Shown piece after piece: positions 7,675-37,397 of a DNA stretch of 37,690 bases. The notes under the pieces are model-generated. The model was not told the DNA's origin and did not search any database. It was given only the letters and a program-made list of their open reading frames with translations. Both the position numbers and the translations under genes were made by a program. The first letter of the stretch is position 1; each line of letters opens with the position of its first letter. Location of the stretch: the NCBI GenBank assembly GCA_027306885.1, contig DAHUYV010000033.1:1-37690 (forward strand). Direction: 5' to 3'. This DNA is from Candidatus Dormiibacterota bacterium (GTDB lineage: Bacteria; Chloroflexota; Dormibacteria; Aeolococcales; Bog-877).

Positions 7675-9150
7675 TCAGCCCACCTCGAGGGGCCGGCCGA
7701 GGTCGGCCGACTCCAGCTCCCGGACGTCGGCGAAGTGCCCGAACACGGCGGCGGCGGCCGCCATCTGTGGGCTGACCAGGTGGGTGCGCCCACCCGCCCC
7801 CTGGCGGCCTTCGAAGTTGCGGTTGGAGGTGGAGGCGCACCGCTCCCCCGGTGAAAGGATGTCGGGGTTCATCCCAAGGCACATCGAGCAGCCGGCCTCC
7901 AGCCACTCGAACCCCGCCTCCCGGAAGACCCGATCCAGCCCCTCGGCCTCGGCGGCCCGCTTCACCGACCCCGACCCGGGCACCACCATAGCCCGGACCC
8001 CGGAGTGGACTCGGCGGCCGGCGGCCACCCCGGCGGCGGCGCGCAGGTCCTCCAGCCGGCTGTTGGTGCAGGAGCCGATGAACACCCGGTCGACCGAGAT
8101 CTCCTGGATGGCGGTGCCCTCCTCCAGCCCCATGTAGGCAAGGGCGCGGGCGGCGGCCTCGCGCTCGGCACCGGGCTCCAGCTCCGCCAGCCGGGGGATC
8201 CGGCCCCCCACGGTCGCGGACATCGCCGGGGTGGTGCCCCAGGTCACGAAGGGGGCGAGCTGGGCGGCGTCCAGGACCACGGTGCGGTCGAAGACGGCGC
8301 CCTTGTCGGTGGCGAAGCTCAGCCAGCGCTCGGCCGCCCGGTCGAAGTCGGGCCCCTCGGGGACCGCCCGGCGACCCCGGAGGTAGGCCACGGTGGTCTG
8401 GTCGGGGGACACCAGCCCCGCCCGGGCGCCGGCCTCGATGGTCATGTTGCAGAGCGTCATGCGCCCCTCCATGCTGAGCCCGCGGATGGCGCTGCCGGTG
8501 TACTCGATCACCGATCCCCGGCCGCCGGCGACCCCGAGGCGCTGGATGATCCCGAGGGCGACATCCTTGGCGGTCACCCCCGCCGGGAGCTCGCCCTCCA
8601 CCCTGACCTCCAGCGTCGACGAGGGGGCCTGCCACAGGCACTGGGTCGCCAGCACCTGCTCCACCTCGGAGGTCCCGATGCCAAAGGCCAGCGCCCCGAG
8701 AGCGCCATGGGTGGCGGTGTGGGAGTCGCCGCAGACCACCGTGGTCCCCGGCTGGGAGAGTCCCAGCTCCGGACCCACCACGTGGACGATCCCCTGGCGG
8801 GCATGGTGCAGGTCGAGGAGGGGGATCTCCGCGGCAGCGCAGTTGGTGGCCAGCTGGCGGAGCTGCTCCCGTCCCACCGGGTCGGGGGAGGGGCGGCTGC
8901 GCTCCCAGGTGGGCACCACGTGGTCCATCACCGCCAGAGTCAGCTCCGGCCGCCGCACCGACCGGCCCTGCGCCCTCAGCCTGGAGAAGGCCTGGGGTGA
9001 GGTCACCTCGTGGACCAGATGCAGGTCAACGTACATGAGCATCCGCTGGTCGGGGTCCCCCGCCACCCGGTGCGACTCCCAGATCTTCCGGTACGCCGTT
9101 CGCCGGGGCGCGGGCGGGGCGGTGTCAACCTCCACGGTGTCTCCCTCCAT
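7675..9150 (-). CDS. leuC: 3-isopropylmalate dehydratase large subunit
   Basis: [87 protein letters not shown] at 9135 has a better-placed GGAGGG Shine-Dalgarno than the ATG at 9150. Confidence 0.96.
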
Positions 9151-9490: not shown

Positions 9491-10570
9491 TCACGCCGAC
9501 CGCCGGAGCCACCCCACGACCTGCTGCGCGACCGCCTCGGTGCTGGCGTCGCCGCCCAGGTCAGGGGTCAGGACTCCCCCTCGAACCACCTCCGCCACCG
9601 CCGCGTCGACCGCCGCGGCGAGGTCGGCACGTCCCGCCGAGAGGCGGAGGAGCATCGCCGTCGCCGCGATCGCGCCGATGGGGTTGGCCACCCCCCGGCC
9701 CGCCAGCTCCGGGGCCGACCCGTGCACTGGCTCGTACAGCCAGGGGAGCTCCCCTCCCCCGCTGGCCGATGGCAGCACCCCGAGGGTGCCGGGCAGCGCC
9801 GCCGCCTCGTCGGTCAGGATGTCCCCGAAGAGGTTCTCGGTCACCACCACGTCGAAGCTCCGGGGCTGCTGCAGGAGGCGGAGGGCGAAGCTGTCGACCA
9901 GGCAGTGCTCGAGCTCCACGTCGGGGAACTCCCGCCCCACCTCGGTGGCCACCGCCCGCCAGAGCCGGGAGGTGGCCAGCACGTTGGCCTTGTCGACCGA
10001 GGTCACCCGGCGGCGCCGCTCCCGGGCCATCCGGAACGCCACCTCGCAGACGCGGCGCACCTCCAGCTCGCCGTACTCGGTGGTGTCGACCGCTCGGCGG
10101 TTGGGAGCGCGCCCCGCCTGCCCTTGGGGCCGGCCGAAGTAGGCCCCACCGGTGAGCTCCCGGACGAAGAGGATGTCGGTGCCGGCCACCCGCTCCGGTC
10201 GCAGCGGGCTCTGCCGCTCCAGGCCGGGCAGGACCCGCACCGGGCGCAGGTTGGCGAACGCCCCGAGAGCCCGGCGCAGAGCCAAAAGGCCGGCCTCCGG
10301 GCGCACCGGCAGCCCATCCCACCGGGGCCCGCCGACCGCCCCCAGGAGGATGGCTCCGGCCGAGAGCGCCGCCTCCCGGGTGGCGGCGGGGAGCGGGTCT
10401 GGGCCGGCGTCCAGCGCCACCCCCCCGATCGGCCGCCGCTCCACCTCCAGCTCGATGCCGCTGCCGGCCAGCGCCGCCCCCAGGACCAGGAGGGCGGCCT
10501 CGGTGACCTCGGGGCCCACCCCGTCGCCGGGGAGCACCAGGAGTTGGAGGGGGGTTGCCCCAAGGCTCAC
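9491..10570 (-). CDS. leuB: 3-isopropylmalate dehydrogenase
   Basis: LLVLPGDGVGPEVTEAAL ... VRELTGGAYFGRPQG ... SVDKANVLATSRLWR ... VTENLFGDILTDEAAALPGTLGVLPSAS ... EPVHGSAPELAGRGVANPIGAI. GTG start in GTGA overlap with the leuA stop. Confidence 0.96.
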   Translation of the reverse strand: MSLGATPLQLLVLPGDGVGPEVTEAALLVLGAALAGSGIELEVERRPIGGVALDAGPDPLPAATREAALSAGAILLGAVGGPRWDGLPVRPEAGLLALRRALGAFANLRPVRVLPGLERQSPLRPERVAGTDILFVRELTGGAYFGRPQGQAGRAPNRRAVDTTEYGELEVRRVCEVAFRMARERRRRVTSVDKANVLATSRLWRAVATEVGREFPDVELEHCLVDSFALRLLQQPRSFDVVVTENLFGDILTDEAAALPGTLGVLPSASGGGELPWLYEPVHGSAPELAGRGVANPIGAIAATAMLLRLSAGRADLAAAVDAAVAEVVRGGVLTPDLGGDASTEAVAQQVVGWLRRSA

Positions 10571-11784
10571 TGGGCAGCCGCCCCCGGCCGGTACCCGTGG
10601 ACCTCGCCCACGATCCGGATCAGCACCTCGTCCTCGACCTGCTTGCTGCCGTCGGCCACCTCCAGGAAGCGCGCCCACACCGCGGAGAGGTCACCGGCCG
10701 GAAGGTCCACCCCGATCCGGTGCAGCCGGTGGACCAGGGCGTGACGGCCGGAGCGGGCGGTGAGCACGATCTGGGTGCCGTCGGCGCCCACCTCCTCGGC
10801 GGCGATGATCTCGTAGGTGCGGCGGTCGCGCAGCACCCCGTGCTGGTGGACGCCGGAGGCGTGCGAGAAGGCGTTCCCACCCACCACTGGCTTGTTGGGG
10901 GGCACCCCGATGCCGGTGAGGGCGGCCACCATCCGGCTGGTGGGCACCAGCTCCCGGGCGTCCAGGTTGTCTCCCAGGCCGAGCAGCGGTCGACGCACCC
11001 GCAGGGCCATCGCCACCTCCTCGATCGCGGCGTTTCCGGCCCGCTCGCCCAGCCCGTTTATGCAGCCCTCCACCCGGCGGGCCCCGGCGGCGATCCCGGC
11101 GAGGGAGTTGGCGGTGGCCAGCCCCAGGTCGTCATGGCAGTGGACGCTGACCAGCACCCCCGCCATCCCCCGCACCTGGGACCGCACCGTGCTCACCAGC
11201 TCACCGAACTCGAACGGCAGGCAGTAGCCGGTGGTGTCCGGCAGGTTCACCACCCCAGCCCCGGCATCGACGGCCACCTGCACCGCCTCGCAGAGGTAGT
11301 CGGGGTCGGCCCGGCCGGCGTCCTCCGGGGAGAACTGGACCGTCGTGCAGAGCGAGCGGGCGTAGGACACCGCCTCCCTGATCCGGGCCAGCACCTGGGC
11401 CCGGTCCAGCCCCAGCTTCTCGGTGATGTGCACGTCGGAGACACCGATGAAGACGTGGATCAGGTGCCGGGAGGCGTCCCGCACCGCCTCGTGAACGGCG
11501 TCGATGTCCGAGCGCACCGCCCGTGCCAGTCCGGTCACGGCCGGGCCCTGGACCTCACGGGCGATGGTGCGCACCGCCTCCAGGTCCCCCGGCGAGGAGG
11601 CGGGGAAGCCCGCTTCGATCACGTCGACCTGAAGTCGGGCCAGCTGCCGGGCCACCTGCAGCTTGGCCAAGGGGTCCAGGCTGGCGCCCGGGGACTGCTC
11701 GCCGTCCCGCAGGGTCGTGTCGAAGAACTCGACGACATCGGCAGCGGGTGGCGCCGCCCCCCCCGATACGCCCTGCTCGCTCAC
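10567..11784 (-). CDS. leuA: 2-isopropylmalate synthase, short form
   Basis: [52 protein letters not shown] ... [41 protein letters not shown] ... [17 protein letters not shown]. About 405 aa, ending soon after the [10 protein letters not shown] segment; GTGA overlap with the ilvC stop. Confidence 0.92.
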
Positions 11785-12806
11785 GACCGCTCTCCCGCCG
11801 CCACCGGCACCTCGGCCACCGGCTGGATCCAGGACATCCGGGAGCGGAGGCGCGATCCCACCTCCTCGATCTGGTGCTGGGACTCCCGCTCCCGACGGTC
11901 GAGGAATTCCCGGCGGCCGGAGCGGTTCTCGTCGATCCAGGCCTCGGCGAAGGTTCCGTCCTGGATCCGGGCGAGGATCGTCCGCATCCGATCGCGGACC
12001 CCCTGGTCGATGAGGAACTCCCCACTCTGGTAGTCGCCGTACTCGGCGGTGTCGCTGACGCTGTAGCGCATGAGGGAGATCCCTCCCTGGTACATGAGGT
12101 CGACGATCAGCTTGAGCTCGTGCAGGCACTCGAAGTAGGCCAGCTCCGGCTGGTAGCCCGCCTCGGTGAGGGTCTCGAAGCCGGCCTTCACCAGCGCCGA
12201 GACCCCGCCGCAGAGCACCGCCTGCTCCCCGAAGAGGTCGGTCTCTGTCTCCTCGCGGAAGGTGGTGTGGAGGACGCCGGCGCGGGTCGCCCCGAGCCCC
12301 CTGGCGTAGGCCAGCGTCCGGGGCAGCGCCCTCCCGGTGTGGTCCTGGTGGATCGCCAGGAGAGCCGGGCAGCCGATCTGCTCTCGGAAGCAGGAGCGGA
12401 CCATGTGGCCGGGGGCCTTGGGCGCCACCATCGCCACGTCGCAGTCCCGGGGCGGGATGACGGTCCCGTAGTGGATGGAGAACCCGTGGGCGAAGAGAAG
12501 GAGGCAGCCGGGCTGGAGCGCCTCCCCCAGCCCCTCGTGGAAGAGTCGCGCCTGCTCGTGGTCGGGCACCAGCACCATCACCACGTCGGCTCCGCTGGCC
12601 GCCGCCGCCGGGTCCAGGACCTCGAAGCCGTCGGCCGCAGCCTTGGCCCGGCTGCGGCTCTGGGGCAGCAGTCCGACCCGCACCCGGTAGCCGCTGTCGC
12701 GCAGGTTCTGGGCGTGCGCGTGGCCCTGGCTGCCGTACCCGAGCACGGCCACCGTGGCCCCCTCGAGCTGGCCGGGGTCGGCGTCCTCGTCGTAGTACAT
12801 CTGCAT
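11781..12806 (-). CDS. ilvC: Ketol-acid reductoisomerase
   Basis: [40 protein letters not shown] ... [11 protein letters not shown] ... [76 protein letters not shown]. Confidence 0.97.
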
Positions 12807-12811
12807 CGGGC

Positions 12812-13354
12812 TCAGCCCTCCTCTTGAGTGATCGGCTCATGCCGCCCGCCGGTCGTGGCGAGGGCGATCGGCCGGCTGCAGACCCAGTCCCGCAGCCGCA
12901 TCGACGTGAACGCCTTCCGAGCGGCCTCCAGCAGTTGCGGCGGCCCCGAGAGGGCCGCCAGCAGCCGCTCCGCGCTGCGCTCCACCACCTGGGCCCCGAA
13001 CCGCTCCAGCTCCCGCTCCAGCCCCTTCGCCCTGGGGTCGGGGAAGTCGAACAGGCCCACCGCCCACTCGGAAGGCGCCTCCTCGGTGAGGTCCGCCACC
13101 TCGACCACGTCGATCAGCTTGGCCAGCTGGAGAGCCGCCTGGGCGGGGGGCTGACGGCCGGTGTCCACCCGCAACCAGAGGCAGAGCTCCCCTTGCCGTG
13201 ACCCCTCTCCCACAGCGCAGCTGAGAAGGCGGTGGCCGCGCCGGCTGAGGCAGTTGGTGACCCGCTGCAGAACCCCGGGGCGGTCCTCCACCCGCACCGA
13301 GATCAGCCGCGCCCCCGAGGCCTGGGGAGGCGCCAGGGTCACGGGTACGGGCAC
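12812..13354 (-). CDS. ilvN: Acetolactate synthase small (regulatory) subunit
   Basis: ACT-domain start [52 protein letters not shown]; between ilvB and ilvC. Confidence 0.92.
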
Positions 13355-19802: not shown

Positions 19803-20345
19803 TCAGACCCTCCGGCCGGTGAAGCAGAGGAACCGGGTCTGGTCATCGGCACCCGGGGGCGGCTCCACGGCGGGGCCGAAGCCGCCGGGCACCCGCATCT
19901 GCTCACCGCGGGGCAGGAGGAACCGATGGGCTACCGCCACCGCCTCCGGATCCAGCCGCTCGTCCAGGCCGGTCGCCCGGGCCAGGTCCCAGGTGTGGAC
20001 CAGGGTGTCGGCGCAGAGGAGGGTGCCGACCATCTGCTCGAAAGTCATCACGCCCACCCGGGACTTCACCTCGGTCGCCGCCCGCTCGGGGTCGGAGAGG
20101 GCCGCGGCGACCGCTGCGGAGGCCGACCGCCAGGCAAAGGCCGGGTCGGCGTCGGCGGCCGGCTCAGCCGGCGGCGACAGCATCGCCGCCACGTTGCGGT
20201 GGACGCCGGCGGAGTGGATGACCACGTCCCGAGCGGCCCACCCCTCGCAGGGGCTGGGGGAGTCCCACCGCACCGCCGGCACCGCCGCCAGTCGGGACCC
20301 GAAGCCCTCGGCGACCCTGGCATAGCGCTCGGCGACCTCGGACAC
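19803..20345 (-). CDS. TIGR03086-like / DinB-like (mycothiol-dependent maleylpyruvate isomerase N-terminal family) protein
   Basis: PCEGWAARDVVIHSAGVHRNVAAML, LLCADTLVHTWDLARATGLDERLDPEAVAVAHRFL. Confidence 0.8.
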   Translation of the reverse strand: MSEVAERYARVAEGFGSRLAAVPAVRWDSPSPCEGWAARDVVIHSAGVHRNVAAMLSPPAEPAADADPAFAWRSASAAVAAALSDPERAATEVKSRVGVMTFEQMVGTLLCADTLVHTWDLARATGLDERLDPEAVAVAHRFLLPRGEQMRVPGGFGPAVEPPPGADDQTRFLCFTGRRV

Positions 20346-20475
20346 CCGGTGAAGGTAACCGCCGGGCCGGGATTGGGTCAAGCCGGGCCGGCGGCCCCGC
20401 TCCACCGGGGTGCTCCCGCCGCTTGCTATGGTTGGCCGCCAGGCGCAATCGTCCGCAGCTCCAAGGAGGCTCGAA

Positions 20476-22161
20476 GTGGAGGCAGCCAATCCCAGCTGGC
20501 CGAGCCGCGGTCTGGTGGAGGGTCGGGAGCGGGCCGCCGCCCGGGCAATGCTCCGAGGAGCCGGCTTCAGCGGAGAGGACCTGGGAAAGCCGCTGATCGG
20601 GGTCGCCAACAGCTGGATCGAGACCATGCCCTGCAACCTCGGCCTTAGGGGCCTGGCGGAGCACGTCAAGCGCGGGATCCGCGCGGCCGGCGGCACCCCG
20701 ATGGAGTTCAACACCATCGCCATCAGCGACGGGGTGGCGATGGGCACCCAGGGGATGAAGGCATCGCTGGTGAGCCGAGAGGTGATCGCCGACTCCATCG
20801 AGCTGGTCTGCCGCGGCCACCTGCTGGACGGGGTGGTGGCCCTGGTCGGCTGCGACAAGACCATCCCCGGGGCCGCGATGGCGCTGGCCCGCATGGACCT
20901 GCCGGGATGCCTCCTGTATGGGGGATCGATCATGCCCGGTCGGTTCCGGGGCCGCGAGGTGACCATCCTCGACGTCTTCGAGGCGATCGGCAGCGCCGAG
21001 GCCGGCACCATCGACGACGCCGAGCTGGCGGAGCTGGAGGCCGTCGCCTGTCCCGGGGCCGGAGCCTGCGGCGGGCAGTTCACCGCCAACACCATGGCGA
21101 TGGCGGTGGAGATGCTGGGGGTCGCCCCGCTGCAGTCGGGAGGCATCCCGGCGGTCGATCCCGCCAAGGCCGCCGAGGGGGCGCGGGTCGGCTCCCTCGC
21201 CGTGGAGATGGTGCGCTCCGGCAGGAAGCCCAGCTCGTATCTCACCCGGGCGTCGTTCCTCAACGCCATCGCCGGGGCGATGGCCAGTGGGGGCTCCACC
21301 AACGCCGTCCTGCACCTCCTGGCGATCGCCCATGAGGCCGGAGTCCCCCTGGAGATCGATGACTTCGACATCGTGAGCCGCCGCACCCCCTGGCTCGCCG
21401 ACCTCAAGCCCGGCGGCCGGTACAACGCGGTCGACCTCACCCGGGCCGGAGGCGTCGCCCTCCTGGCGCGAAGGCTTCTGGAGGGGGGCCTGATCGAGGG
21501 AAAGGCGGGCACCTGCACCGGAACCACCCTCGGCGCCGCGGCCCTCGCCACCTCTCCCGAGGTGGACGGCCAGGAGGTGGTGCGCGACCTGGCCCGGCCG
21601 CTGGCCCCGACCGGGGGCACCGTCGTCCTCCACGGCCAGCTGGCACCGGACGGCGCGGTGGTGAAGGTGGCGGGGCACCTTTGGCGCCGCCACACCGGCC
21701 CGGCACGGGTGTTCGACTCTGAGGAGGAGTGCATGGCGGCGGTCGCCACCCGCGCCATCCAGCCCCATGACGTGGTGGTGATCCGCCACGAGGGACCGCG
21801 GGGCGGCCCCGGCATGCGGGAGATGCTCGGGGTCACGGCGGCGATCGTGGGGCAGGGGCTGGGTGACACCGTCGCCCTGGTCACCGACGGGAGGTTCAGC
21901 GGGGCCACCCACGGCCTGATGGTCGGCCACGTGGCCCCCGAGGCCGCGGTCGGCGGCCCGATCGCCCTCCTCCGCGACGGCGACCGGGTCACCATCGACG
22001 TGGAGGCGAGGACGATCTCCGCGGATCTCGACGATGCCGAGTGGGAGCGCCGGCGGGCGGCGTGGAGCCCCCGGAGAAACCGGCTGGGCGGAGCGTTCGA
22101 CCGCTACCAGCTGCTGGTCGGGTCGGCCGCCCGGGGAGCGGTCCTGGGCGAGCCGGAGTAG
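20476..22161 (+). CDS. ilvD: Dihydroxy-acid dehydratase
   Basis: [114 protein letters not shown] start preceded by AAGGAGG. Confidence 0.96.
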
Positions 22162-33817: not shown

Positions 33818-34627
33818 TCAGCGAGCCAGCCGCCCGCGCTCCCTCCTCCAGAGCCAGGAGCCCACCAGAATCGCCACCAGCCCCACCAGGACCAGTGCCC
33901 AGCTCAGGTACGCCGGCAGCTGGGCGCCGGTGCCCGGTGTGCTCGCCCCGCCCTGCTGGGTGCTGGCCCCGAGGACCGCCCCCGAGGCGGTGCCGGTGAG
34001 CACGGCCCCCAGGGTGACGGTGGCGCCACCGCCCTGATACTGGTTGCCGGCGGCCAGCGGCAGCGACCAGTGCACGGTGAAGGTGTCGCTGTACCCCGTT
34101 GGCTGGGAGGTGGCCACCTTCTGGTTCTGGTCCGAGCTCTGGCAGTACGCCGCGTGGGGCGGGGCGGCCGAGGCGCTCGGCGGAGCGGATGCGTAGCAGG
34201 AGACCGTGCCGATGCCGTAGGTGCTGCCGGTGCTGTCGGTGACCGTGACCTGCAGGCCGGTCGGCGTGCCATCGAGGAGCGCCTCGGTGCCAACGCCGGG
34301 CCGCAACGGGGATCCAGAGGAGTGGGCCTGAGTGGACACGTCGAGGGCCACGTCGACTGGGCCGCTGTACGAGCTGGCGCCGGACCAGGTGACGGTGTTC
34401 GTGCAGGTTCCGGAGTCGCCAGGCTGAAGCGACAACCTCGACCCGCAGATCGTAAGGCCAGAGGCGGACACGGGGGCCGCGGTGAGCGCGGCTACCGACC
34501 CGACCCCGACACTGAGCAGGCCCGCGCAGGCCAGGGCAGCGGAAAGCAGTACTCGGTGATGAGCGGTGGGAAACTGACTAGGCCGCAGTCCCAGGGCGTC
34601 CCACACGCGCCGCCAGCCACTCGCCAC
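33818..34627 (-). CDS. Secreted surface protein with sortase-like C-terminal tail
   Basis: N-terminal TM/signal (HHRVLLSAALACAGLLSVGVGSVAALTAAPVSASG), LSLQPGDSGTCTNTVTWSGA, C-terminal TPGTGAQLPAYLSWALVLVGLVAILVGSWLWRRERGRLAR. Confidence 0.72.
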   Translation of the reverse strand: MASGWRRVWDALGLRPSQFPTAHHRVLLSAALACAGLLSVGVGSVAALTAAPVSASGLTICGSRLSLQPGDSGTCTNTVTWSGASSYSGPVDVALDVSTQAHSSGSPLRPGVGTEALLDGTPTGLQVTVTDSTGSTYGIGTVSCYASAPPSASAAPPHAAYCQSSDQNQKVATSQPTGYSDTFTVHWSLPLAAGNQYQGGGATVTLGAVLTGTASGAVLGASTQQGGASTPGTGAQLPAYLSWALVLVGLVAILVGSWLWRRERGRLAR

Positions 34628-34678
34628 GTTATTCCCTTCTCCACGTCCAATCGATTCGCTCTTGTACTAGCGCGAATT

Positions 34679-34709
34679 GGGGGCTGGCGGCCCCAAGCCG
34701 CCAGCCCCC
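34679..34709 (-). other. Strong intercistronic stem-loop
   Basis: GGGGGCTGGCGGC - CCCAA - GCCGCCAGCCCCC: perfect 13-bp inverted repeat, 5-nt loop, no T-tract on either side. Confidence 0.9.
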
Positions 34710-34800
34710 CCGGGCCCCGGGTCAGATAGTCGTCATCGCGGGTTGGGCTCCATGCCCATCACCACCCGCTGAGCTAAGTTCAGACGGGCAATCATCCGTT

Positions 34801-36033
34801 CTAGGAATTGAACTGCACGGCAGGAATGTAGGGGTACATGCCATAGTTGCCGCTCACAGCAGTGCTGACCTGGGCAAACGTCGTTGTCACTGTGTTGGCA
34901 GTGACTTCGCCAGGACCTACATCGTTGTAAGCAAACGACGGAAACAACGCCGCGAACACGTACCCTTGGTTAGTATCTGAGCCGACACTCACATGGGTGG
35001 GCTCGGTCGACAGTTGGACATTCACCCCACCATCAACAGCATTTTGGGGATCATCGTACTGAATCCCGTAGATTACTGTGCCTGGGAGCGTGACATTCTG
35101 AGATGCAAAGTCGAAGGTAATGCTGAAGTTGCCGATGCCACAATACGGATTGCCAGCACCCGGGCCCGTCGTGCAGTAGGGCGAGCCGTAACCCCCATTC
35201 GGCGCTGCCGGGATCGAGAAAAGCTGAGTGTCGCTTGCTATCAAGCTGCCGGGCAGGCCGCCCGAGCCTGGATTGTAGATGTTGAACGTGATGTTCATTG
35301 TCCCCGCAGTTGTGTCGAAGTTGGCCATGTCGACTACCACGTTATTGAGGTACCCGCCACCGTTGGCTAGATTGACTTCGTTCCCGAGCTCGCCAAGTTG
35401 AGTTGCGTAGTACGCCATGGACGCGGTGTACGCAGGGTAATCGATCCGGCTGTTGTAGAGGACTCCTGGTGCATTGGCCCAAGTCGCAGGCGTTCCGCTG
35501 CAAGTCTCATTGCGAGCGCTAGAGCCATATTCGTTATTGGAGCACTGCACCGCGTAGAACGTGACCGTGACAACGGCCGATTGCGCCTGGTACGAGTTGT
35601 CGGCAGCCGCGGAGAGCGCATACCCCACGACCGCTGTGAAAGTCTCACCATTTGGGTCCAGGGTTGACCCGGCGACACTATTACCTATGAGCACAGGGTT
35701 GGACCCCAATGCCGTACCATCGATTGTGAACGAGAGCTCGGGCGCGAGGACTCCGTTAGCGGTCGCTTCAGCACCGATGTAAGCAGGCAGGCTGCCCCCG
35801 TACATCACGGTGAAGTTGCAGTTGCCTGTGTCTCCCGGCTCTAGGTTGCCGACGGTGCACGTGCCCGTGGTGGGGCTGTTCAGACTCACCGTGCCTGCGG
35901 TGAATGTCTGACTCGCTCCAGCAGAGGTCGCACTGAAAAGAGCAAAGCTAGCGCCAATCGCCAGCGCGGCGATGGCGCCAACCCCCACTACGCCAGCGAG
36001 CACCAGCCCGAAGCGCTTAGTGAATAGATTCAT
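34801..36033 (-). CDS. TasA/camelysin (CalY)-like secreted protein with additional C-terminal domain
   Basis: MNLFTKRFGLVLAGVVGVGAIAALAIGASFALFSATSAGASQTFTAGTVSLNSPTTGTCTVGNLEPGDTGNCNFTVMYGGSLPAYIGAEA has the SipW-dependent signal (ALFSxT...TFTAGTVSL) and LEPGDT...F.V.Y.G motif; strong RBS GGAAGGAAGGGAAG. Confidence 0.82.
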   Translation of the reverse strand: MNLFTKRFGLVLAGVVGVGAIAALAIGASFALFSATSAGASQTFTAGTVSLNSPTTGTCTVGNLEPGDTGNCNFTVMYGGSLPAYIGAEATANGVLAPELSFTIDGTALGSNPVLIGNSVAGSTLDPNGETFTAVVGYALSAAADNSYQAQSAVVTVTFYAVQCSNNEYGSSARNETCSGTPATWANAPGVLYNSRIDYPAYTASMAYYATQLGELGNEVNLANGGGYLNNVVVDMANFDTTAGTMNITFNIYNPGSGGLPGSLIASDTQLFSIPAAPNGGYGSPYCTTGPGAGNPYCGIGNFSITFDFASQNVTLPGTVIYGIQYDDPQNAVDGGVNVQLSTEPTHVSVGSDTNQGYVFAALFPSFAYNDVGPGEVTANTVTTTFAQVSTAVSGNYGMYPYIPAVQFNS

Positions 36034-36068
36034 CGTTGTCTTCCCTTCCTTCCGTTGGTCGTGTTCGC

Positions 36069-36087
36069 GTCCGCAAGAATTGCGGAC
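36069..36087 (-). other. Short perfect stem-loop between sipW and the TasA-like gene
   Basis: GTCCGCAA-GAA-TTGCGGAC: 8-bp arms, 3-nt loop. Confidence 0.75.
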
Positions 36088-36186
36088 TCAGCGTTGACTT
36101 GGAGTCGCATTCGTCAGTGGCTGTCCCTCCCTAATACCACCCGTCTGCACGCACTCATAGGCGATGTGTAGCCCTCAGAGTCCACC

Positions 36187-36825
36187 CTACCGGTTGGACT
36201 GGGCCCGCTTGCCCTGGGCGTCCTGCTCTCCGAGGGCAACCCACTTTGTCCGGATCAACTCCTCTGCCACGTAGACCACGACGATCATGATCAGTACCAC
36301 GAACGTGATCGGCTGGTGTAGTGCGCTGAGAAGGTACCCCCCGTAAGGGATGCGCTCCCCTCGGTAGATTCCCAAGATTTGTGAAGGCTGCACCAACCCA
36401 ACGTCCGGGGCATTGTTGGCGTCCCCTTTAGTCCGATACTCGACCGTCTTCGCTTCGGCGACGGCGGGCCCTGTCAGCACCGCGTAGATTCGGTGCGTAA
36501 TTACCAGGCCAGTCGAAGTACCCGCTGCCGGAGTCGCCTGGAAGGTGATGATCTGGCCCTTGCGCAGGTGCGCGGCGGCGGCCGCGGATATTGTGTTGTC
36601 GATGATGAGGTCGCCGGTGTTGAAAGTCGGGGCCATCGAACCGCTGTCCACCGAGTAGATGGGACGGCCGAACAAGGTGGTGGCGCCGTTGGCTCCGTGG
36701 CGTAGGGAGACCGCTAGGAAGAGCGCCAGAACCACGAGCACAATCACGACCGCGGCTAGGACCCATTGGACCGCCTTCGCCACTGGGTGGCGGCGCTTGG
36801 CTGGCGTCCCCACATGCGCCGCCAT
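36187..36825 (-). CDS. sipW: SipW-type (ER/archaeal-type, S26B) signal peptidase I
   Basis: IYSVDSGSMAPTFNTGDLIIDN (SGSM, catalytic Ser), GLVITHRIYAV (His in place of the P-type Lys), YRTKGDANNAPDVGLVQPSQILGIYRGERIPYGGYLL; N- and C-terminal TM helices. Confidence 0.9.
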   Translation of the reverse strand: MAAHVGTPAKRRHPVAKAVQWVLAAVVIVLVVLALFLAVSLRHGANGATTLFGRPIYSVDSGSMAPTFNTGDLIIDNTISAAAAAHLRKGQIITFQATPAAGTSTGLVITHRIYAVLTGPAVAEAKTVEYRTKGDANNAPDVGLVQPSQILGIYRGERIPYGGYLLSALHQPITFVVLIMIVVVYVAEELIRTKWVALGEQDAQGKRAQSNR

Positions 36826-37397
36826 CAGCTGGCGCTCGGGCTGGGTGAGGGGTTAGCCGATGGACTGGGCGTCGCCGCCGGGCTTGGACTGGGACTCGGC
36901 GTCGGACTTGGGGTCCCCGTGGGACTGGGGGTCGCCGTCGGGTTTGAAGTCGTAGTCGCACTGGGCGCCGCCGGGGCAGCGGAGGTCGGGGTTGGCGATG
37001 GGGTAGACCCCACCTTCGGGGCCACGGCCGCGCTCGAGGTGGAGGTGGGTGGCGGCTCTCTGAGGGTGACCTGCTGGGAAGCCGCTGTCGAACTGAAGAG
37101 CGAGGTGGTGGGGCTCAGCGCCGAGTCGATCGCGATGATGGGAGCGGAGAGCAGGACCGCGACCGCCAGTAGCGGAAGCAGGGCACGGCGGAGGTCCCAT
37201 CGGCGCCGCCGCGGTCCGGGGACAAAAGGGCGAGGAGTCCGCTCACCGAACGCGAGCACACTTTCCGACCGGCGCCAGGGATGGGGCGTCGGCGTTTCGG
37301 CGCCTGGCCTCTCTGGCGCACCTCGCACTTCTACTTGGCCCAAACCATCCTCCACCAATGGAGGTCCGACACCCCTAGCCCATGGCCCTACGTCCAC
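36825..37397 (-). CDS. Membrane-anchored Pro/Ser/Thr-rich protein of the SipW/TasA-like operon
   Basis: RRRRWDLRRALLPLLAVAVLLSAPIIAIDSALSPTTSLFSSTAASQQVTL then SPTPSPSPSPAATPSPSANPSPSPSAS; TGA/ATG overlap (TGATG) with sipW. Start codon uncertain. Confidence 0.68.
   Translation of the reverse strand: MDVGPWARGVGPPLVEDGLGQVEVRGAPERPGAETPTPHPWRRSESVLAFGERTPRPFVPGPRRRRWDLRRALLPLLAVAVLLSAPIIAIDSALSPTTSLFSSTAASQQVTLREPPPTSTSSAAVAPKVGSTPSPTPTSAAPAAPSATTTSNPTATPSPTGTPSPTPSPSPSPAATPSPSANPSPSPSAS

Follow-up and report, generated by a model that had tools for sequence, protein, structure and literature searches.

A SipW/TasA-type gene set in a Dormibacteria genome and a tentative three-part scheme for its putative surface fibre

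Organization of the locus

The stretch of DNA described here, hereafter the window, is the whole 37,690-nucleotide contig DAHUYV010000033.1 (G000:C4 in our numbering of genomes and contigs) of a Candidatus Dormiibacterota assembly that comprises 2.26 Mb in 170 contigs and is 90% complete. Near its right end, the list of open reading frames (ORFs) contains four co-directional minus-strand ORFs, which encode, in their order of reading, a secreted protein rich in proline, serine and threonine (the PST protein), a SipW-type signal peptidase, a protein of the TasA/camelysin type and a secreted protein with a sortase-like tail (Table 1). A reading of the sequence alone had proposed a SipW/TasA-type surface-fibre operon made up of these genes; all four were found at the positions and on the strand that it named, together with the overlap between the stop codon of the PST gene and the start codon of sipW. 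The interpretation given with it holds in part: a SipW/TasA-type surface-fibre operon is supported by family models, by profile and fold comparison and by the conservation of gene order.

The synteny comparison suggested by the same reading was carried out, and the four genes were found in the same order in locus L003 (JAJYET010000039.1, isolate DBS1-1.bin61, i.e., G007:C50), where both neighbours are also kept: upstream a gene for a putative CPBP-type protease, named from our own reading of its sequence, and downstream a transketolase-like gene. The shared order and neighbours argue that the set is more than a chance arrangement. The intergenic gaps measure ~153 nucleotides (nt) on the 3' side of sipW and ~173 nt on the 3' side of the TasA-like gene, the latter with a strong hairpin; given these gaps and the hairpin, co-transcription of the four genes is putative. 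A promoter scan found none. A collection of viral contigs searched with both protein families yielded zero relatives, which suggests that, as far as that collection reaches, the proteins are not phage-borne.

Table 1. Features of the four-gene locus, in window coordinates (L numbers denote loci; aa, amino acids; PWM, position weight matrix)
Feature	Coordinates	Strand	Remarks
PST-rich secreted protein, proposed donor-only (TapA-like) starter	36825..37397	-	190 aa; start codon uncertain
Donor-strand-like motif (TTSLFSSTAASQQVTL...)	37044..37109	-	Directly after hydrophobic signal segment of PST protein; donor PWM
TGATG stop/start overlap, PST gene/sipW	36823..36827	-	TGATG also in L003, L053 and L055; GTGA in L048
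SipW-type (endoplasmic reticulum (ER)/archaeal-type) signal peptidase	36187..36825	-	212 aa; TIGR02228, NF046067
TasA/camelysin-type protein, proposed fibre shaft subunit	34801..36033	-	410 aa; PF12389, profile A2, Foldseek
Proposed N-terminal donor strand and linker (SFALFSATSAGASQTFTAGTVS)	35884..35949	-	Right after SipW-type signal peptide; ungapped in ten TasA-like proteins
Exchangeable C-terminal domain of TasA-like protein (residues 190-410)	34804..35466	-	Profile built without the window
Divergence island relative to L003	34740..36528	.	3' half of sipW and TasA-like gene; sliding identity
Perfect GC-rich hairpin without U-tract, between proposed shaft and anchor genes	34679..34710	-	Same place in relatives
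Acceptor-only TasA-domain paralogue with sortase-like tail, proposed wall-anchored fibre end	33818..34627	-	269 aa; hhalign, profile A5
C-terminal sorting signal: TPGTG(A), hydrophobic helix, RRER	33818..33940	-	TPxTGA in 6/6 members of A1

Signal peptidase and TasA-like protein

The searches with hidden Markov models that the sequence-only reading had suggested, for an S26B-type peptidase and for camelysin, both gave matches above cut-off. The peptidase scores 95.8 bits with TIGR02228 (ER/archaeal/SipW-type; curated cut-off 51.85), is the sole strong SipW-type match in its genome and carries Ser-His catalytic motifs: SGSM at residues 61-64 with Ser63, HR with His111, and KGD at residues 133-135 with Asp135. 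With NF046067, the NCBIfam equivalog model of Bacillus SipW, it reaches 99.8 bits against a cut-off of 190, and by the rule of this model its sequence classes it as a relative and not an orthologue of Bacillus SipW.

The TasA-like protein matches Pfam PF12389 (camelysin) with 28.0 bits (gathering cut-off 22.5), over the N-terminal part of the model only. It is not classed as TasA proper, with 12.1 bits in the equivalog NF046066 (cut-off 450), and scores 17.3 bits, just below the cut-off of 19, with TIGR04088, the NCBIfam model of the SipW-cognate signal; the PST protein is not among the matches listed for the latter. Profile A2, built from ten TasA-like homologues and searched against all PDB sequences, matched only TasA (8aur, E 0.051; 5of1, E 0.11), the matches being marginal and alone no proof; the alignment keeps the order of TFxxGTxxL...PGD followed by N-x-YQG...A-x-Q. 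An AlphaFold2 model of the mature protein, made from a two-sequence alignment, has a mean pLDDT of 43, with residues 11-90 at 57-73, and its comparison with 350,542 PDB chains in Foldseek placed the TasA structures 5of2 and 5of1 as the top two (prob 1.00; E 5.6e-3 and 6.3e-3, respectively). Because the PDB matches of the profile, the Foldseek result and the Pfam match come together, the relation of the third protein to TasA is taken as established by sequence and model comparison.

TasA has a donor strand at residues 28-38 and a linker at residues 39-47, and polymerises by the entry of residues 28-38 into the next subunit (PMC9674648). As judged from the alignments, the donor segment of the ten TasA-like proteins sits where the donor strand and linker of TasA do.

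Fourth protein and sortase

The fourth protein had been described as wall-anchor-like, which is right as far as it goes; sequence comparison further identifies it as a TasA-domain paralogue that lacks the donor segment. An hhalign comparison of its family with the TasA-like family gives a probability of 96.6 and an E-value of 5.3e-10. In whole-genome searches, the TasA-domain profile A5 finds it in G000 (4e-9; model positions 66-211 only), G007 (2e-10) and G012 (1e-9), with matches that always begin at model position 66. The distance from the V-x-A cleavage site to the PGD motif is ~13 residues in the fourth protein versus 37 in its TasA-like neighbour; nothing in the alignments corresponds to the donor and linker region, and the donor PWM described below found no good site after the signal segment. 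No Pfam family reaches its cut-off in the fourth protein, and the search of its profile against the PDB returned chance matches only.

The TPxTGA motif, the hydrophobic helix and the arginine residues are kept in all six homologues. The window genome has one recognisable sortase (74.8 bits, cut-off 26.6), and exactly one is present in most genomes of the family. Two more secreted proteins of the window genome (at C84:24054-24188 and C52:13234-13371) carry similar tails, GVLGAST..TPGTGA and GVLGAST..TPGAGA, and are likely substrates of this single sortase, to judge from these tails.

PST-rich first protein

The first protein consists of a single hydrophobic segment followed by Pro/Ser/Thr-rich sequence, in which no Pfam family reaches its cut-off. 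Its orthologue is L003:6271-6780, and related proteins are encoded at L048:9522-10097, L053:357-1220 and L055:5897-6523. Between the window and L003 the gene shows a nonsynonymous divergence (dN) of 0.039 and a synonymous divergence (dS) of 0.129. An artefact of frame choice was considered and is rejected on account of the dN/dS of 0.038/0.200, well below 1, over residues 66-116 in the same comparison, along with the conserved sipW overlap.

The donor PWM was trained only on the ten TasA-like donor segments and used to scan 1791 ORFs of related loci. In 85 of these ORFs the best site comes after a hydrophobic segment; within this subset the PST proteins of L048, L003 and the window hold ranks 17, 22 and 23, with the L047 first-gene protein at 25. 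The ORFs ranked around and above these carry SipW-type or camelysin-type N-termini, and those ahead of the window protein are TasA/camelysin-type proteins and the PST proteins of L003 and L048. Counting both PST-type and first-gene proteins, four genomes show the motif. In the L047 protein, a globular domain follows the donor-like segment; a secreted protein of the window genome that has a sortase-like tail contains a part with 39% identity to this domain.

In Bacillus subtilis, the stop and start codons of tapA and sipW overlap (PMC10151520). Two marks of TapA, a first gene that overlaps sipW and an N-terminus resembling the TasA donor, are found in the PST gene; the third, an immunoglobulin (Ig)-type domain, is absent, since past the motif there is only low-complexity Pro/Ser/Thr sequence, with no sandwich or other folded domain. 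The protein may, on its sequence, work like TapA, and it is not classed as TapA. A secreted TapA peptide of residues 44-57 suffices for biofilm in B. subtilis (PMC10151520), so a donor-only protein could in principle do the work of TapA.

Conservation and hairpin

Partial or rearranged versions of the set occur in L047 (G002), L048 (G010), L050 (G012), L051 (G016) and L053 (G035). L050 keeps the TasA-like gene, the fourth gene and the transketolase-like neighbour as in the window, the upstream part being lost at the contig end. L047 combines a first gene that encodes a donor segment with two sipW genes, a TasA-like gene and a fourth gene, L048 shows the order PST, sipW, TasA-like, sipW, TasA-like and fourth gene, and L051 has a sipW followed by one TasA-like gene; in L049, also of G010, three TasA-like genes follow sipW. 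L053, from another family, has a PST gene, a sipW with a C-terminal extension and, later, a camelysin-like gene, a second peptidase and a fourth gene. Camelysin matches were found in 23 of the 400 genomes of a phylum sample.

Several variants of these loci were observed along the way. The two sipW-type genes of L047 (3146-4015 and 3835-4527) differ from each other and overlap head-to-tail before the single TasA-like gene, and the three tandem TasA-like genes behind one sipW at L049:11374-14499 could possibly form a hetero-filament. In three f2 genomes, the SipW-type peptidase carries a C-terminal extension (L053:1220-2446, L055:6523-7407 and L054:2178-4010; ~200 aa in L053), for which the extension tested, that of L053, gave no Pfam match; in L054, the PST and sipW frames are fused as one continuous ORF. 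A second kind of SipW-type locus is seen at L077:3269-6255 and L075:3615-6725, also f2, where genes for a short signal peptidase and for a long secreted protein follow a camelysin-like gene, the long protein likewise beginning with a camelysin-type N-terminus (AFAMFTDSTTAGPGSFQTGTL).

A perfect or near-perfect GC-rich hairpin without U-tract lies 3' of the TasA-like gene in six places: the window (z -3.4), L003 (z -4.5), L050 (z -4.2), L047 and both TasA-like genes of L048. Clostridium perfringens makes a sipW-bsaA mRNA and a read-through sipW-bsaABCRSD mRNA (PMC7395162); by analogy, our guess is that the hairpin here may similarly permit partial read-through.

Probable exchange of the proposed shaft gene

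The C-terminal domain of the TasA-like protein (residues 190-410) is a member of a family whose other members occur as secreted proteins on their own: a profile built from such stand-alone proteins of G092, G036 and G037, without the window, matches it at 5e-16 and also matches L053:4966-5994, inside another sipW locus. The TasA-like C-termini of L003 and L050 are different and not reliably alignable to that of the window. Between the window and L003, the N-terminal part of the transketolase-like protein is 99% identical, the fourth protein 91% and SipW 85%, versus 48% for the TasA-like protein and a not reliably alignable 27% for its C-terminal part; dS is 0.13-0.33 in the neighbours and ~1.0 in the N-domain of the TasA-like protein. 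Conversely, L003 and L050, the latter from another genus, share TasA-like proteins that are 86% identical and fourth proteins that are only 67% identical. Sliding identity to L003 begins to drop within sipW at ~36528, with one 100-nt bin near 36328-36229 back at 92%, reaches 34-50% over the C-terminal domain and recovers at 34739, at the hairpin. We read this pattern as the probable outcome of recombination that put a different shaft gene into one lineage, either that of the window or that of L003.

Fast divergence alone would account neither for the sharp right edge nor for an allele common to different genera. At L050:3738-4064, an integrase-core (rve_3) fragment lies at the contig end just upstream of the TasA-like gene and is possibly an agent or scar of exchange.

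Proposed fibre and alternative explanations

How TasA fibres start, stop and are attached is poorly understood in Bacillus, and the role of TapA is debated. For the present locus, a TasA-type donor-strand fibre is the reading that we favour, with moderate confidence. SipW would cut the camelysin-type signal peptide and thereby free the N-terminal donor strand of the TasA-like protein, and probably that of the PST protein too; the donor strand of one TasA-like subunit would enter the groove of the next to give a non-covalent shaft, on which each subunit would display a species-specific C-terminal domain. The PST protein, with a donor strand and no sandwich, would supply the first strand and start the fibre or cap one end, a part that TapA may play in the TasA fibre (PMC9674648). 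The fourth protein, with a sandwich and no donor strand, would accept the last donor strand and be fixed to peptidoglycan through its TPxTG tail by the single recognisable sortase of the genome, and the hairpin 3' of the shaft gene would keep this anchor scarce relative to the shaft. In an alternative of opposite polarity, the PST protein would be the wall-bound base. The fibre may act in biofilm formation.

The fibre reading is better supported than this exact scheme of donor-only starter, donor-and-acceptor shaft and acceptor-only wall-anchored end, which we regard as possible rather than probable. It is with the same reserve that we suggest that monoderm bacteria may possess a complete donor-strand pilus, with its three parts encoded in assembly order and with shaft cassettes that bring different display domains swapped between species. 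The protein family is already known and the proposed division of labour among the parts of the operon is new; the architecture of the four-gene set was absent from the literature searched.

Several observations weigh against these proposals. Matches to the TasA-domain profile, by the TasA-like domain or its paralogue, occur in 10 of the 110 genomes of the class, a patchy distribution, and the uninterrupted row of all four parts was found only in the window and L003. The AlphaFold models from two-sequence alignments are poor, the other one having a mean pLDDT of 48, and nothing useful matched the model of the fourth protein; as this model and the PDB search were both unhelpful, the relation of the fourth protein to TasA rests on profile comparison. 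Its tail is not a canonical LPxTG, the sortase gene is unlinked (contig C149) and its product is best placed in class E, below the class cut-offs, and BsaA of C. perfringens polymerises without its neighbouring sortase (PMC7395162). Furthermore, the f2 PST proteins score low in the donor PWM (L053 ranks 88 among all ORFs, L055 and L054 lower) despite resembling donors by eye, so this test supports the closer relatives only.

A classical TasA-like matrix would have the TasA-like protein secreted and polymerising freely, with the fourth protein, though from the same domain superfamily, acting apart from it as a wall adhesin that neither caps nor holds the fibre. This would agree with the sortase-independent TasA/CalY filaments of Bacillus cereus (PMC13082335), with the mostly extracellular BsaA polymers of C. 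perfringens, for which SrtB is not needed (PMC7395162), and with the long gap and hairpin that part gene four from the shaft gene. We nevertheless consider it unlikely, as the fourth gene adjoins the TasA-like gene in L003, L050, L047 and L048, their products share a domain, and a fourth protein without a donor segment fits a capping part. An export system without any fibre, in which camelysin-type surface proteins of a metalloprotease-like or coat kind would be exported by SipW as monomers and bind substrates or surfaces through their C-terminal domains, appears quite improbable: although PF12389 is named after a metallo-endopeptidase and the large extra domain of the shaft protein could be its active part, the length and register of the donor segment are kept in ten proteins, in line with the strand-exchange region of TasA, and the top structural matches are TasA.

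Compatible with a fibre, and doubtful on balance, is a further view of the PST protein as a single-pass, wall-spanning membrane stalk that holds SipW or the fibre base and resembles a donor through a shared type of signal peptide. Long Pro/Ser/Thr tails are typical of wall-spanning stalks, the donor likeness is short and lies partly in the signal region, and L053, L054 and L055 score low, whereas the match continues beyond the hydrophobic segment for ~20 residues (L048 HALFVASSPGGSQTFVGG), and the corresponding operon position in L047 encodes a donor-like segment linked to a globular domain. The sequence-only reading had seen a PST stalk in place of TapA; the PST-rich protein is indeed present, and it is the replacement that we revise. 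Because it bears a motif resembling the donor strand of TasA and its gene overlaps sipW in the manner of B. subtilis tapA, the part of TapA is more likely for it, on sequence grounds, than that of a stalk, and a donor-bearing protein without a sandwich is as would be expected for a minimal TapA.

Comparison with known systems

Analogous to tapA-sipW-tasA of B. subtilis (PMC9674648, PMC10151520), the locus has a first gene that overlaps sipW and whose product has a donor-like N-terminus and a probably disordered tail, a SipW-type peptidase and a TasA/camelysin-type shaft protein with an N-terminal donor segment. It differs in that the first protein has no Ig-type domain, the shaft protein ends in an additional, exchangeable domain, an acceptor-only paralogue with a sortase-like tail is added, and the TasA and SipW equivalog cut-offs are not reached. 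The sipW-bsaABCRSD operon of C. perfringens (PMC7395162) is similar in that sipW adjoins the fibre gene and the genome has a sortase gene, there by sipW and here unlinked; its bicistronic transcript with read-through into accessory secreted proteins would be a further likeness, to a putative transcript of the same kind here. In contrast, BsaA has no sorting signal and does not need SrtB, no overlapping TapA-like gene is described there, and the two-component system of that operon is absent from the present locus.

The sipW-tasA/capP/calY system of B. cereus (PMC13082335) likewise combines SipW with camelysin-type subunits and a chaperone-like partner that has a disordered C-terminal domain; unlike the present locus, it is described as sortase-independent, and the DUF4047 motif of CapP is not seen here. 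With the sortase-assembled pili of Gram-positive bacteria, the locus would share a shaft and a base subunit that the housekeeping sortase joins to the wall, whereas it has neither a sorting signal on the shaft nor a pilin sortase in the operon, and assembly would proceed by non-covalent strand exchange.

Other genes of the window

Elsewhere in the window, a 757-aa ORF at 10567-12840 (minus strand) contains 2-isopropylmalate synthase at residues 368-746, with ~370 unmatched N-terminal residues that may reflect a different true start or a fusion, and a leuC-like 3-isopropylmalate dehydratase gene lies at 7675-9150. In a 730-aa ORF at 19803-21995 (minus strand), the MDMPI_N domain, which is the N-terminal domain of mycothiol maleylpyruvate isomerase, lies close to the C-terminus.

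Implications

Starting, building and anchoring the fibre seem to fall to three different small proteins, which can be told apart by the presence of a donor strand, a groove or both; owing to this split, each step would be directly testable with peptides or with purified proteins of small size. That the shaft gene was probably exchanged while the operon around it was conserved suggests that selection acts on the exposed part of the putative fibre, and its shaft may serve as a display scaffold.

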